Part shown: positions 1 through 43,127 of the stretch, piece by piece
How positions within the stretch are numbered: the first letter of the stretch is position 1
How the letters are laid out: every line of letters starts with the position of its first letter
Notes under the pieces: generated by a model
The model's database searches: none
The model's input: the letters and a program-made list of their open reading frames with translations, nothing else
What the model was told of the DNA's origin: nothing
NCBI RefSeq assembly: GCF_007845675.1
Contig: NZ_VOBR01000021.1
Location: forward strand, 1-64,000
Origin: Lentzea tibetensis
GTDB taxonomy: Bacteria; Actinomycetota; Actinomycetes; Mycobacteriales; Pseudonocardiaceae
Length of the DNA: 64,000 bases
Direction: 5' to 3'
Position numbers and translations under genes: made by a program

Positions 1-8
1 CAGAGGTC

Positions 9-71
9 GCCACATCGACAATGCCCTGTCAAGGCGGAAAAGCTGCCTTGACAGGGCATTGTCGATGTGGC
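9..71. repeat. 27-bp perfect inverted repeat (hairpin)
   Basis: Positions 9-35 and 45-71 are exact reverse complements, leaving a 9-nt A-rich loop. A G-U and a G-C pair can close the loop further, to about 5 nt. No T-run follows on the + strand. The hairpin could be the terminator of a gene left of the window, or a small palindromic mobile repeat. The sequence alone does not decide. Confidence 0.85.
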
Positions 72-212
72 AAGGCTTCGCCTGATCAGCGAGACCCTCC
101 CCACCCCCTGCCCTCCGGGAAAGTTTGATCTGATCATTCGGCCGCCGGTTTGTGCTCGGGGGCCGCGCCCGCTTGGCAGTGCGGGGGTTGCTGGTGCGGC
201 GGGCGCTCTTTT

Positions 213-390
213 CTTTTGGTATCTGCCGGTTTCGCTGGGCTCTCTTGGTGCCTGCCGGTTTGGGCGGTGCTCTCTTGGTCCGCGCCGGTTTCGCTGGGCT
301 CTCTTGGTGCCTGCCGGTTTGGGCGGTGCTCTCTTGGCTCGCGCCGGTTCTCGCTGTGCTCTCTTGGTATCTGCCGGATCGTGGTGGGTC
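213..390. repeat. Tandem array of ~30-bp units, six copies
   Basis: The block CTCTTGGT followed by a GCCGGTT core recurs at 242, 272, 301, 331 and 361, with a degenerate first copy near 213. Spacing is 29-30 bp. Units alternate in two flavours, so 242-300 and 301-360 also read as a ~59-bp higher-order duplication. There are no unique spacers, so this is a direct tandem array and not CRISPR. Function is unknown. Confidence 0.8.
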
Positions 391-445
391 GCCGGGTGTG
401 CTGGCTTCGCTTCGCTCGCTCGTTCTCGGCTTGCGTGTCTGCGGG

Positions 446-527
446 GCCGGGGATTGTCGGTGTTGGCTGAGAGCATCGATTCGGGGGGTTCTCACTGCCA
501 GGGGACGCCTGCGTGAGCGTGGCCCAG
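446..527 (+). repeat. Dispersed repeat, copy 1 (intergenic, diverged)
   Basis: The stretch begins CCGGGGATTGTCGGTGTTGG and ends CAGGGGACGCCTGCGTGAGC. Both ends match the in-gene copies at 22612-22867, with a diverged middle. It is the same element found reversed near 11485-11545. Confidence 0.6.
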
Positions 528-11470: not shown

Positions 11471-11484
11471 GCGGGGCATCGCTT

Positions 11485-11545
11485 CGCAGGGTCCCCGCCT
11501 AGGGGTCCCCTGATTTGATTTTCCTAGCCAGCACCGACAGTTTCG
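11485..11545 (-). repeat. Dispersed repeat, copy 2 (reverse orientation)
   Basis: Read on the minus strand this gives CTGTCGGTGCTGG, then ATCAGGGGACCCCTAGGCGG. These are the same two blocks, in the same order and spacing, as the three copies inside the permease gene near 22.7 kb. The copy lies between the deoA stop and the following terminator. Confidence 0.75.
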
Positions 11546-11575
11546 GTGCCTCAGCTGCAGGTAAGACCCAAATCA

Positions 11576-20959: not shown

Positions 20960-21058
20960 GGTAGGGGCTGTCCTGCCTGCCTGCCTCGGTCATCCGGCCG
21001 ACCCGGAGTGTCGTTCCGGCTGAAGTTTTGTCCCCCTCGCCGGGGCACGTTGGACGGC

Positions 21059-21727
21059 ATGACTTCGTTGCTGGCCGCTCGCGGCCTGGTCAAGACCTAC
21101 GGATCGGTGCGCGCACTGGACGGCGTGGACGTCGACGTCCACGCGGGTGACGTGATCGCCGTCGTCGGTCCGTCCGGCTCGGGCAAGACCACCCTGCTGC
21201 ACGTCCTGTCCGGCATCCGGACCGCCGACCTGGGCGACGTGTTCCTCGACGGCGCACCGATCGGCGTGCTCTCCGAGACCCGGCGCAGCAAGCTCCGCCG
21301 CACCTCGTTCGGCTTCGTCTTCCAGTCGGGCATGCTCGTCGCCGAGCTCTCCGCTCTCGAGAACGCCGCCCTGCCTTCGCTGCTGGCCGGTGCTGACCGT
21401 TCGTCGGCACTCTCCGCGGCGTCCTCGTGGCTGGACCGGCTGGGGCTCTCCGGTCTGGGTGCGCGGCGTCCGGGGTCCTTGTCCGGCGGGCAGGCGCAGC
21501 GCGTCGCCATCGCCCGTGCTCTCGCACACCAGCCGCGGGTGATCTTCGCCGACGAGCCGACGGGTGCTCTGGACAGCCGCACTGGTCAGGACATGATGAC
21601 GGCCCTGCTGGAGTCCGCTGCCGCTTCGCGGGCCGCTGTCGTCGTGGTGACGCACGACCAGGCGATCGCCGCTCGGGCCGACCGGGTCGTCGAGATGCGG
21701 GACGGGCGCATCGGGGTGTTCGCGTGA
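21059..21727 (+). CDS. ABC exporter ATP-binding protein (MacB/LolD type)
   Basis: The protein has 222 residues. Walker [10 protein letters not shown], a Q-loop in FVFQSGM, signature LSGGQAQR, Walker [13 protein letters not shown] and switch His in VVTHD are all intact. The subfamily works with FtsX-like permeases in export or antibiotic resistance. It is divergent from the two-component system across 99 nt and overlaps the permease start (GTGA). The ATG lies 3 nt after TGGACGG; the ribosome-binding site is poor. Confidence 0.94.
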
Positions 21728-24096
21728 GGCTCGCTTTCGCCGTGCTGCGCGGGGACGGGCGCAGCCGGGTCGCTGCTCTTCTGGTCGCTCTGGGTGTGGC
21801 CGTTGGGGTTTCGCTGGTGCTGTGGCTCGTGTCGTCGCCGCACGCCTTGCAGGCCAGGGCTGATCGTGCCGCGTGGCGCAGTCCTGATGCAGCTGTCTCC
21901 TCGTCTGCCGCTCGGTTGACGCTCGCGGTCAACCGGGACTCCTACCGCGGGCTGGTGATCTCGCGGTTCGACGTGGCCGGTGCCGTGGACGTGCCGGTTG
22001 CGCCTGGTATTCCTCGGGTTCCTGCTGCCGGCGAGGTGTTGTTGTCGCCCGCGTTGGCCTCGTTGGTGGCGTCGGAGCCTCGGGACGTGCTGGGGGATCG
22101 GTTTCCCGGCAAGGTGATCGGGGAGCTCGGGCCTGCCGCGTTGCAGTACCCCGATGAGCTCGTGGCGATCGTGGGGCACGCGCCTGGTTCGCTGCGGGGG
22201 TATCCGCTGGTGTCGTTGACCGGGGTCGGGGGATCGGTCGACGAGCTGTTGTTGTTGCTCACGCGGGTTGGGCTCGTCGTGCTCGTGGTGCCCTGTCTCG
22301 TGTTGGTGGGGTCCGCTGCTCGGTTGACCGCTGCTCGGCGGGCTCGGCGGTTGGCTGCTCTGCGGTTGGCCGGGGCCACTCCTTGGCAGACCGTTGTCGT
22401 CACCGCTGCGGAGACCGCTGTCGGGGCTGTCGTCGGCAGTGTTGTGGGGGTTGTGGTTGCTCGGCCGTTGAGTTCCTTGACCGCCCGGATTCCTTGGGGT
22501 GGTGGGACTTGGTTTCCCGGTGACTTCACGCCGCCCGCGTCCGTTGTGGTCGTTGTGGCGGTGCTGGCGCCTCTGCTGACTGTGGGAGCTGCGCTGGCCG
22601 GGCTGCTTCGGGGCCCGGAATTGTCGGTGGTGCCTGGGAGAATTAAGTCAGGGGACCCCCAGGCGGGGACTTCTGCGCGAGCGCGCGGCGGTTTCGGCAG
22701 CCCGGAATTGTCGGTGCTGTCTGGGAAACTTGAATCAGGGGACCCCCAGGAGGGGACGCCTGCGGGAGCGCGGGTTCGTGCGCGCGGCGCTGGTCGCGGG
22801 CCGGGATTGTCGGTGCTGCGTGGGAGAATGAAAGCAGGGGACCCCCTGGGCGGGGACGCCCGCGGCAGCGTGTCCAAGGCGCGGCTCTGGCTCGTCGTCG
22901 GTGCCTGCGCCCTCTTCTTCTTCGGCCTCTCGACCGCGCGTGACCACGGCAGCGGCGACCGGTTCACCGTGCTGGTGCTGGGCGTCGGCGCGGTGTCACT
23001 GGCGCTGGTGTTCGCGGGCCCGGTGGTGACGAAGCTCGTCGGTGTGGTCTTCGTCCGCCGGTGGCGCGGGCCGGCGACGCTCCTCGCCGGCCGCAGGCTC
23101 GCGGGTGACCCGGTGGCGGCGTTCCGCGGCAGCGCGGGGCTCGTGGTCGCCGTCTTCACCGGCTCGATGGCGCTCACGATGCTGCCCGGCCTCGCCGACC
23201 AGGTCCCGTACAGCGACGACACGTGGCGCGCCGAGGCGATCGTCGCCACCGGCATCGGCGACCCAAGACAGGCCGAGACGCTGCAAACACAGACCGAGAC
23301 GGGCCAGGCCGTTCCCATCACCGAAGGGGAGCTCGGCGGCTACGCGGCACTGGTCGCCCGGTGCGCGGACCTCGCGCCGCTGCTCAACGGCCTCACCTGC
23401 CAGCCAGGACCCGCGATCTACCACCCAACGGGCATGTCCCAGGTGACCGGCGACTTCCAACCGCACACCGGCGACCGGTCCGCCCCAAGGCCCGACGCGC
23501 CGGCCCGCACGTATCCGGCGCGCGGCCGGAACTACATCGTCATCGACCCCGAACTGCTGCCGCCGCAACGACCGACCGCCGCCGCGGCGCTCACGAACGA
23601 GGCCAACCGCGAACAGGTGCACACGGCCGTGGTGCGCGCATTGCCGGGCGCACACCTCCAGGGCAAGGAGCGGGACTTCTGGGCCGACACGCTCATGGAG
23701 GACCTGAACCGCGCGACGGTCATCGGGCTCGGCATCGCCGCGCTCGTCGGCGGTGCGGCCGCGGCGGTGGCGGCGGCCGGGTCGGTGATCGACCGGCGGC
23801 AGACGTTCGCGGCGTTGATCGCGGCGGGTACGCCGGTGAAGACGCTGGGCCGCGCGCTGCGGCGCGAGGTGGTGCTGCCGGTGCTCGCCGCGACGGCCGG
23901 GGCGTGTGCCGCGGGGCTGGTCGTCGGACTCGGGTTGGTGGAGATCACCCGTGAGATCACCGAGCGCGGTGGCTTCGTGCTGACGCCGTGGTTCCTCGTG
24001 CCCGTCGCGGTCGGGCTCGTGGTCGCGCTGGTCGCGGCCTCGGCGTGCGGGCCGGTACTACGCGGCATCCGACCTGGGGACTACGCGTCCGAATAG
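21724..24096 (+). CDS. FtsX-like ABC permease carrying a triple in-frame repeat insert
   Basis: The protein has about 790 residues: one membrane segment at the N-terminus, an extracytoplasmic domain, then FtsX-type segments (LLLLLTRVGLVVLVVPCLV and following), a second domain and a C-terminal membrane bundle. It pairs with the ATPase at 21059. About residues 297-382, between the first and second permease halves, contain three copies of the dispersed repeat, encoding PELSVLSGKLESGDP-like units. Spacings of 87 and 99 nt keep the frame open. The linker should be cytoplasmic and disordered. The GTG start lies in a GTGA overlap. Confidence 0.88.
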   Translation: MRLAFAVLRGDGRSRVAALLVALGVAVGVSLVLWLVSSPHALQARADRAAWRSPDAAVSSSAARLTLAVNRDSYRGLVISRFDVAGAVDVPVAPGIPRVPAAGEVLLSPALASLVASEPRDVLGDRFPGKVIGELGPAALQYPDELVAIVGHAPGSLRGYPLVSLTGVGGSVDELLLLLTRVGLVVLVVPCLVLVGSAARLTAARRARRLAALRLAGATPWQTVVVTAAETAVGAVVGSVVGVVVARPLSSLTARIPWGGGTWFPGDFTPPASVVVVVAVLAPLLTVGAALAGLLRGPELSVVPGRIKSGDPQAGTSARARGGFGSPELSVLSGKLESGDPQEGTPAGARVRARGAGRGPGLSVLRGRMKAGDPLGGDARGSVSKARLWLVVGACALFFFGLSTARDHGSGDRFTVLVLGVGAVSLALVFAGPVVTKLVGVVFVRRWRGPATLLAGRRLAGDPVAAFRGSAGLVVAVFTGSMALTMLPGLADQVPYSDDTWRAEAIVATGIGDPRQAETLQTQTETGQAVPITEGELGGYAALVARCADLAPLLNGLTCQPGPAIYHPTGMSQVTGDFQPHTGDRSAPRPDAPARTYPARGRNYIVIDPELLPPQRPTAAAALTNEANREQVHTAVVRALPGAHLQGKERDFWADTLMEDLNRATVIGLGIAALVGGAAAAVAAAGSVIDRRQTFAALIAAGTPVKTLGRALRREVVLPVLAATAGACAAGLVVGLGLVEITREITERGGFVLTPWFLVPVAVGLVVALVAASACGPVLRGIRPGDYASE
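22612..22867 (+). repeat. Dispersed repeat, copies 3-5, in frame inside the permease
   Basis: Three units start at about 22612, 22699 and 22798. Each runs from CCGGAATTGTCGGTG through AATCAGGGGACCCCCAGG to a Gly/Arg-coding GC-rich tail. Start-to-start spacing is 87 and 99 nt, both multiples of three. Copies outside genes occur at 446-527 and, reversed, at 11485-11545. Confidence 0.85.
22698..22797 (+). other. Middle unit of the in-gene repeat (best-preserved copy)
   Basis: This ~100-bp unit contains every block of the element, including AGGGGACGCCTGCGGGAGCG, which also appears in the intergenic copy near 505. It is therefore the best reference for searching the genome. In the permease it encodes PELSVLSGKLESGDPQEGT followed by an Arg/Gly-rich stretch. 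Confidence 0.7.
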
Positions 24097-42691: not shown

Positions 42692-42698
42692 TTCTCGT

Positions 42699-42715
42699 AC
42701 GGGCCCGAAATTGTC
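42699..42715 (+). repeat. Solo copy of the dispersed-repeat left end
   Basis: GGGCCCGAAATTGTCGG at this spot differs at one base from GGGCCCGGAATTGTCGG, the start of the in-gene repeat at 22612. The rest of the element is absent. It lies between the antitoxin and toxin genes. Confidence 0.45.
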
Positions 42716-42740
42716 GGACCCTTGTGATCAACTGGACTCC

Positions 42741-43127
42741 GTGATCAACTACCTGGATGCCGGTGACCTGCTCGTGCTGGCCACCGCGGTGACCGGCGGC
42801 GATCTCGTCGTGCGCGACCTCGGCTTACTCGACACGGCGGCGTACCGGCCTCGTGCCACGGTGCTCGGCGTCGAGGCGTACGACACCCTGTGGCTCAAGG
42901 CCTCCTCGGTGCTGGACTCGATCGTGCGCACCCGTCCCCTCGTCGAGGGGAACTGGCGCCTCGGCTGGGTGGCCGCCGTGACCATGTGCGACATCAACGG
43001 CTGGTGGATCGACGCCGAGGAGGACGACGCGCTGGACCTCGTCCGCGCGCTCGGCCGCGACAAGCTCGACGTTCCCCAGATGGCCGCCCACCTCGAAGCG
43101 TGGGGAATCCCGAAGGAATCGGGTTGA
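42741..43127 (+). CDS. Doc/Fic-family toxin-like protein, degenerate active site
   Basis: The protein has 128 residues. VINYLDAGDLL, RDLGLLDTAAYRPRATVLG and AYDTLWLKASSVLDSIV follow the death-on-curing (Doc) layout. In the Fic motif H-x-F/L-x-D/E-G-N-K-R the sequence reads RPLVEGNWR: the catalytic His is Arg and the Lys is Trp. Canonical kinase or AMP-transfer activity would therefore be lost. The pair with the RHH gene still looks like a toxin-antitoxin operon, possibly decayed or repurposed. GTG chosen to match homologues; an upstream TTG at 42711 would add ten residues. Confidence 0.75.
   Translation: MINYLDAGDLLVLATAVTGGDLVVRDLGLLDTAAYRPRATVLGVEAYDTLWLKASSVLDSIVRTRPLVEGNWRLGWVAAVTMCDINGWWIDAEEDDALDLVRALGRDKLDVPQMAAHLEAWGIPKESG

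Follow-up and report, generated by a model that had tools for sequence, protein, structure and literature searches.

How does a short DNA repeat come to lie three times, in frame, inside a transporter gene, and why does the codon usage of that gene change abruptly at the repeats? These questions are raised by a locus in the actinomycete Lentzea tibetensis, in a 64,000-nucleotide stretch of its genome (RefSeq assembly GCF_007845675.1, contig NZ_VOBR01000021.1, positions 1 to 64,000 of the forward strand; hereafter the window), where an ATP-binding cassette (ABC) permease gene of the FtsX type contains three copies of a ~73-bp element. We find that the element belongs to a large genomic family and that a strand-specific footprint of C-to-T changes adjoins it, decaying over roughly 1 kb. 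The element may naturally mark points of breakage, stalling, or opening in a bacterial chromosome.

An in-frame repeat array and a mutation footprint in a permease gene

The permease gene (21724..24096, + strand, 790 amino acids) was identified from its open reading frame and a Pfam family search. Element copies 1, 2, and 3 are found at 22613..22685, 22700..22772, and 22799..22871, all on the + strand, with the in-frame readings GPELSVVPGRIKSGDPQAGTSARA, SPELSVLSGKLESGDPQEGTPAGA, and GPGLSVLRGRMKAGDPLGGDARGS, respectively. A first-pass annotation of the sequence had proposed three in-frame units here, and the array, which spans 22613-22871 with start-to-start spacings of 87 and 99 nt, confirms them. 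A covariance model derived from 47 aligned genomic copies, the three permease copies among them, scores these at 91.3, 91.1, and 84.7 bits (E 2e-21 to 1e-19). The insert is placed C-terminal to the first FtsX domain (best Pfam FtsX stretch, 184-294). From 29 orthologous loci that were fetched, four were left out, and the insert is missing in all 25 aligned permeases (23 from the same genus, two from other genera), with the model finding zero elements across these loci. The ends of the insertion could not be placed to the base, as the orthologues are too diverged at the insertion site.

Codon usage changes abruptly at the array, and on its left, at 21290..22612 (+ strand), there is a footprint, missed in the first-pass annotation, in which third-position T/(T+C), hereafter T3, is raised. 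In the permease gene left of the array T3 is 0.27-0.67, compared with 0.05-0.09 in the orthologues, and T makes up 68 of 148 third-position pyrimidines left of the array versus 12 of 207 to its right. A is found at only 3 of 148 third-position purines in this left part. The footprint continues into the preceding gene (21050..21727, + strand), a called open reading frame that resembles an ABC transporter ATP-binding protein and ends at the permease start, with T3 of 0.19, 0.24, 0.33, and 0.08 in its last four bins, for which there is no orthologue control. On the right of the array a weaker mirror footprint occurs at 23284..23643 (+ strand), where third-position A/(A+G), hereafter A3, is 0.22-0.28 versus 0.04-0.09 in the orthologues and T3 is not raised; this mirror footprint is absent from the 400 bp that adjoin the array. 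A low-G+C gene half of foreign origin was also considered for the permease and was rejected because C to T is raised without G to A.

The element is a dispersed family with short and composite copies

The first-pass annotation described the element as dispersed, and a search of the whole 9.4-Mb genome bears this out, with at least 149 model matches at E <= 1, 146 of them at E <= 2.2e-4; this count is drawn from the best 150 of 5435 first-look candidates scored, and the true total may be higher. A BLAST search of the whole genome with the 22698-22797 unit finds 45 places, and the conserved core of the element is ~65-70 bp. Three of the 149 matches (E above 2.2e-4) and two without sequence were dropped before further counts. 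The remaining 144 copies were split by a hand-written sequence pattern into 90 solo units (sub1, or short copies) and 54 copies of a variant (sub2). The sub2 unit forms the right end of a composite that consists, in order, of a hairpin, a conserved block, a degenerate array with a period of ~30 bp, and the unit. Composites may break the assembly and hence be undercounted.

Element copies follow genes and avoid promoters. With genes called by a purpose-written codon scorer, the 79 intergenic short copies are found in 29 convergent, 47 tandem, and 3 divergent gaps, while the copy-free gaps in the fetched stretches are 11 convergent, 116 tandem, and 66 divergent. A role as promoter for the next gene was rejected, as just those 3 of 79 short copies, and only 1 of the 38 composites between genes, lie in divergent gaps. 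In the 150 bp before short copies, TTGTCCACA or TGTGGACAA occurs 43 times and the palindrome GTGAACGGSCCGTTCAC 23 times, compared with totals of 10 and 9, respectively, in the remaining 2.65 kb of flank per short copy, and these motifs are absent at sub2 copies. We take TTGTCCACA and TGTGGACAA to be DnaA-box-like.

The C-to-T footprint recurs beside the element

Upstream of the 144 copies, the element strand is on average rich in T and poor in A, and this bias forms a gradient; downstream it is near neutral. In the 31 genes that end before a sub2 copy, T/(T+C) is 0.407, 0.320, 0.255, 0.185, and 0.117 in successive 100-bp bins counted back from the stop codon, followed by 0.094 at 500-700 bp and 0.076 at 700-1000 bp. 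In 114 genes far from copies the ratio is 0.063-0.076, rising to 0.113 over the final 100 bp. Per-gene medians are 0.298 for the sub2-followed genes and 0.073 for the far genes (Mann-Whitney p = 1.1e-10). The permease gene was left out of the bin medians, the per-gene strengths, and the gap-matched analyses described below. We found no narrow sequence context for C to T, with all four 5' neighbours affected (0.19-0.34), and the strength of the footprint differs widely among copies.

Orthologues give the direction of change. Six genes were each compared with seven Lentzea genomes; they were picked for their strong footprint, a choice that inflates the effect size. Conserved third-position sites were scored, turned to the element strand, with distances counted from the element-facing end of the gene. 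C to T is found at 77 of 192 sites within 300 bp, 41 of 210 at 300-600 bp, 5 of 91 at 600-900 bp, and 3 of 96 beyond 900 bp, compared with G to A at 0 of 161, 2 of 162, 0 of 89, and 6 of 62 sites in the same intervals. G to T is raised too (23 of 161 within 300 bp); for conserved A, just one site within 900 bp was scorable. At first and second codon positions C to T occurs at just 24 of 281 sites, which fits gradual accumulation under selection. The six proteins are 57-95% identical to their orthologues, none of the 42 orthologue loci (twelve of them short stretches) holds the element, and in five of the six genes the orthologues are low in the first 150 bp beside the element (T3 0.01-0.05 for four genes, A3 0.06 for the fifth).

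The affected strand changes across short copies

Strand asymmetry was calculated as log2[(T/C)/(A/G)] around isolated copies, defined as those with no other copy within 2.5 kb (100 of 144). For 64 isolated short copies the asymmetry is +0.72, +1.21, and +1.56 (interval for the last, 1.03 to 2.16) on approaching from the left, and -1.47 (-2.07 to -0.95), -1.16, -0.69, and -0.55 on going right. At short copies the affected strand is therefore the one with its 3' end at the element, so that the sign flips across the copy, while at composite copies the footprint is strong on the left only. The second Lentzea species G024 gives the same flip at 26 loci (4 of 30 were dropped as second copies of a pair), with +1.74 and +1.67 on the left and -0.84 and -1.04 on the right, the last interval touching zero.

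A comparison with 182 control anchors, a weak control because both strands are taken at each place, was replaced by one with gaps of matched type. In the first 250 bp of convergent gaps the asymmetries to the left and right are +2.47 and -2.57 for 24 gaps with a copy, versus +0.16 and -0.12 for 8 gaps without one. Tandem gaps with the copy in gene direction (18) give +1.72 and -0.89 (-1.74 to -0.14), versus +0.07 and +0.19 for 60 tandem gaps without a copy. This matched control weakens an earlier claim that gene direction has no effect. The side that transcription reaches is always marked, and the other side is marked in one of two arrangements. Taking all short copies together, genes transcribed toward the copy show asymmetries of 1.67 and -1.48, stronger than genes transcribed away from it. 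Transcription toward a copy therefore appears to strengthen the footprint, without explaining all cases.

Among the composites, a gene on contig C1 is transcribed away from its sub2 copy; a family search identifies it as a real gene, for an alpha/beta hydrolase. Its coding-strand signature is mirrored, with G to A at 19 of 49, 39 of 107, and 32 of 96 sites in its bins and C to T at 0 of 50, 0 of 87, and 0 of 85, indicating that the same DNA strand is affected. If replication direction decided the side of the footprint, that side would depend on the contig; we looked for this and it is not evident. A two-ended break alone was rejected for composite copies, as their footprint is one-sided. A requirement for the long hairpin was also rejected, as the hairpin-less composite on contig C18 has the strongest footprint (T3 0.62). 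As a separate observation, the same-strand C-to-T bias downstream of isolated sub2 copies (500-1500 bp) rises with distance and then falls.

A possible site of strand exposure and the rival explanations

We suggest, tentatively, that single-strand exposure recurs at the element and that the footprint is the resulting trail of C-to-T change, an account that seems to us plausible as a whole if somewhat short of probable. At the element, the 5'-ended strand would be removed or held apart, candidate causes being a stalled fork and 5'-to-3' resection from a break or nick, and the 3'-ended strand would be left single beside the element. Damage to the exposed strand, or error-prone refilling, would slowly convert C to T, while selection would purge harmful changes. 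Transcription running toward a copy would appear to strengthen the exposure. The left half of the unit, which resembles the promoter box of PafBC (RecA-NDp), would fit a link to single-stranded DNA (ssDNA). The geometry of the footprint at short copies fits 5'-to-3' resection, forks held at the element, or transcription stopping from both sides.

A number of results weigh against recurrent strand exposure. The 60 genes before short copies show only a small rise in T/(T+C) (median 0.084, p = 0.051), and no rise is seen in the 75 genes that precede an antisense copy, whichever its type (median 0.070, p = 0.47). Between 750 and 2000 bp to the left of short copies the asymmetry still amounts to +0.28 to +0.77, in part a coding-strand baseline. 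The convergent control consists of 8 gaps only. In tandem gaps where the copy opposes the genes (13), the left side, whose gene is transcribed away from the copy, is at -0.20 (-1.84 to 0.98) while the right side is strong at -2.35, and over all short copies the genes transcribed away reach 0.95 (0.05 to 1.86) and -0.88 (-1.65 to -0.23). Among sub2 genes transcribed away, the four with enough data give 0.50, 0.24, 0.07, and 0.00, so that two of four agree. Composite copies lack the mirror, with a right side that is mildly C-to-T biased on the same strand at 500-1500 bp, and such one-sided copies need a directional process or a second source. At single copies, footprint strength on the left does not correlate with that on the right (rho -0.15, 58 elements). 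Finally, two sets of orthologues without the element are already shifted: those of the sixth gene have T3 of 0.25 and 0.19, and those of the permease have T3 of 0.19-0.27 and A3 of 0.20-0.25 in the last 110 codons.

Transcription could act without any break, if RNA polymerase stops or pauses at the element, R-loops form there, and the bared coding strand mutates. The position of copies after genes, the stronger footprint in genes transcribed toward a copy, and the missing left footprint at the 13 copies that oppose the genes of a tandem gap all favour this explanation, which we nevertheless consider rather unlikely. Gaps of the same type without a copy show no footprint, and transcription alone is therefore insufficient. 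In addition, the C1 hydrolase gene shows the full mirror signature although it is transcribed away, and the genes transcribed away on the right of the 18 tandem copies are marked, in contrast to those at copy-free gaps. A different source of change would be a low-fidelity polymerase that refills the gap after strand removal; its G.T mispairs would produce C to T and A to G on the new strand. The scarcity of A in the permease left of the array fits such synthesis, as does the ~300 bp left of sub2 copies (-300 to -50), where the ~30-bp array lies and, besides C, A is depleted, to about 4-7% (4.1-6.9%) on one strand. However, with a single A site scored, the case for A to G comes mainly from base composition, and G.T mispairs do not explain the raised G to T; we regard this explanation as improbable.

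The remaining explanations fare worse. Wide variation in strength among copies would be expected if each insertion had hypermutated its flank a single time, but the contrast between third positions and first and second positions in the six genes points to accumulation under selection, and a single event of such density would be expected to wreck genes, making a one-off scar very unlikely. Foreign or decaying DNA of lower G+C content, in the first half of the permease and in the other tracts, would account for the abrupt change in codon usage at the array; it is scarcely credible given that G to A is not raised (none of the 161 sites within 300 bp) and that the proteins remain so similar to their orthologues. 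That the permease array is an ordinary protein repeat, with no mobile element involved, has in its favour that the three copies are in frame, and yet has almost no probability: such a linker would be present in all orthologues and have no further copies in the genome, whereas it is absent from the orthologues and the genome has at least 149 matches, which within genes take either orientation.

Distribution and architecture of the family

At E <= 1e-4 in 61 genomes, the element is present in 25 of 25 genomes of the genus Lentzea, 0 of 12 further genomes of the same family, and 1 of 24 genomes of other families, the last with 11 weak matches. Among 150 genomes of the family, searched at E <= 1e-8 with stricter filters and 29 candidates scored per genome, 12 are positive: seven of the genus, three of g21, and one each of g15 and g50. 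The g21 genome G044 gave zero matches in this search. G024 is copy-rich, with 73 matches at E <= 1e-3. Some matches in other Lentzea genomes are ~115 bases long (for example G007:C46:312627-312742) and suggest a third, longer type of unit. Presence and absence between species suggest that the element is mobile, so the first-pass description of a mobile palindromic element stands in its first part. It falls in its second, as we found neither inverted repeats of at least 12 nt in 22400-23100 nor terminal inverted repeats in the three-copy region or in the consensus ends, the latter compared by eye. A conserved RNA fold, which the annotation had raised, was rejected: none of the 7 consensus pairs is changed on both sides, the fold z-scores of 7 copies (-1.5 to +1.0) give no stable fold, and Rfam has 0 matches in the window at the gathering score.

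Composites are more structured. Hairpins with arms of at least 20 bp were found within 900 bp to the left of 44 of the 54 sub2 copies, not always the same hairpin, and the search over this distance gave none for the other 10. In the commonest hairpin the stem sequence differs among composites while complementarity is retained. Four composite loci compared with Rfam gave microRNA-hairpin matches only, all below threshold. A search with a composite stretch across 81 genomes (8 candidates scored in each) gave strong matches in the window genome alone. Long near-perfect hairpins were also seen left of many sub2 copies, for example on contigs C1, C16, C30, C31, C33, C49, and C66. Contig ends frequently fall at a distance of 300-500 bp from a sub2 copy (for example on G000 contigs C24, C28, C33, C42, C48, C49, C54, and C59).

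The window itself contains one composite, with a long near-perfect hairpin at 7..74 (+ strand), whose stem varies among genomic copies with complementarity kept, a degenerate tandem array of ~30-bp period at 212..377 (+ strand), and a long-type (sub2) copy at 437..525 (+ strand, 64.2 bits) as its right end. A solo short-type copy lies between genes at 11473..11557 (- strand, 75.5 bits). Both full copies had been noticed in the first reading, at 446-527 and, reversed, at 11485-11545, and are real with these adjusted limits. The "solo end" reported at 42699 scores 13.3 bits (E = 0.057), which is not significant; in the stretch 42694-42784, likeness to the element is confined to the first ~14 bases.

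Copies are kept in frame in several genes

Several protein-coding genes harbour the element, and in them it preserves the reading frame and forms a linker or tail. Besides the permease, an in-frame antisense copy is found in four genes, for an ABC transporter, a glycerate kinase, an HrpB-like helicase, and an EamA-like transporter, and with a ScpB-like protein as a less clear fifth. The names of these five are from sequence appearance; the family search was limited to the permease, a hydrolase, and a MarR regulator. The five genes were aligned between the window genome and five other Lentzea genomes. In the four clear genes the peptide is present in the window genome and G024 and absent from G002, G009, G011, and G022 (4 of 4), whereas for the ScpB-like protein two of the latter genomes are partly similar. 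All five genes read the element on its antisense strand, and in G024 all five are likewise overlapped by a model match. The copy sits between the membrane and ATP-binding parts of the ABC transporter and in the protein tail of the EamA-like transporter, while the glycerate kinase of G024 (C33, locus L325) has two tandem in-frame units versus one in the window genome. The earlier suggestion that the element can serve as a protein linker in coding regions thus holds for the permease and four more genes. LanC-like and carboxypeptidase-like genes are further in-frame candidates, and 63 of 88 short copies are open in the permease frame.

Relation to PafBC and to known repeat systems

The consensus of the RecA-NDp promoter recognized by PafBC is given as tTGTCRgtg - 8 nt - TannnT (PMC5656591). 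A [T/C]TGTCRGTG box occurs in 122 of the 144 element copies, which share ancestry and are not independent, and nAnnnT follows 8 nt after it in 120 of the 122; the first T of the -10, giving full TAnnnT, is present in 1 of 122. The copies differ from PafBC promoters in this nearly always missing T and in lying after genes rather than before them. A further report finds that ssDNA activates PafBC, poly(dT) being the most effective of the homopolymers tested, and considers a local source of ssDNA more plausible than a distant one (PMC11804915). To judge from sequence likeness, a link between the element and PafBC is suggestive only. A more speculative and, we think, unlikely idea is that the family makes, or settles at, programmed ssDNA sites, with each copy bringing about resection, stalling, or opening of the adjoining DNA, and feeds local T-rich ssDNA to its own PafBC-type box, so that each copy would be a cis-acting damage sensor and directional mutator and the strand-switching footprint would map fragile sites on an evolutionary time scale. 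If strand exposure were confirmed, the copies would offer natural, mappable exposure sites that act as directional mutators of adjoining genes, and it could be tested whether PafBC responds to ssDNA arising beside its own promoter.

We found no account of the family or its footprint in the titles and opening abstract lines of listed literature on Lentzea repeats, in-frame actinobacterial elements, and strand-biased mutation at bacterial repeats, with most subscription journals outside the coverage. Repetitive extragenic palindromic (REP) elements are mobilised by REP-associated tyrosine transposases (RAYT), which are Y1-type transposases. The Lentzea element resembles them in being short, present in many copies, and mostly at gene 3' ends, and differs in not being palindromic and in a genome without Y1_Tnp. 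The Y1 transposase family PF01797 has 0 matches in the genome (assembly 98.7% complete) and is found in 5 of 14 control genomes, and reverse transcriptase PF00078 has 0 matches and is found in 3 of 14; mobilisation by RAYT or by reverse transcriptase of the retron, diversity-generating retroelement, or group II intron type was rejected on these grounds. A link to DUF222/HNH genes was also rejected, as a scan for the string TTGTCRG at the loci of the 8 such genes shows no copy. Miniature inverted-repeat transposable elements (MITEs) such as ERIC, Correia/NEMIS, and RUP are described, in the part of the source available, as non-autonomous and dispersed, with some in-frame fusions (PMC2229807); the Lentzea element has neither visible terminal inverted repeats nor an identified parent transposon.

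In-frame colonisation of conserved genes is already known from Rickettsia and a few other cases. The Rickettsia palindromic element (RPE) is, in the passages available, 105-146 bp long with insertions in 19 reading frames, 12-bp terminal inverted repeats, and a long stem-loop, and like the Lentzea element it is a small repeat found between genes and, tolerated, in frame in conserved protein genes (PMC2229807). Those passages name no strand-specific mutation footprint for RPE (PMC2229807). The Lentzea element is shorter, comes from a G+C-rich actinomycete, and shows no terminal inverted repeats or stable fold, and it shares with RPE the in-frame insertion in several conserved genes. An actinomycete family without visible terminal inverted repeats or a known mover thus widens this class of in-frame elements. 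The footprint outweighs the in-frame insertion in significance, as repeated single-strand sites in bacterial chromosomes are otherwise hard to see.

In yeast and in tumours, mutations cluster beside double-strand breaks, with opposite strands hit on the two sides. Those clusters are bursts involving APOBEC or damage, whereas the Lentzea footprint is an evolutionary trail at a bacterial repeat family, and the composite copies differ further in being one-sided. The short copies share with them the strand switch across a point, and the repeat family would in this way record strand exposure with both sign and distance.

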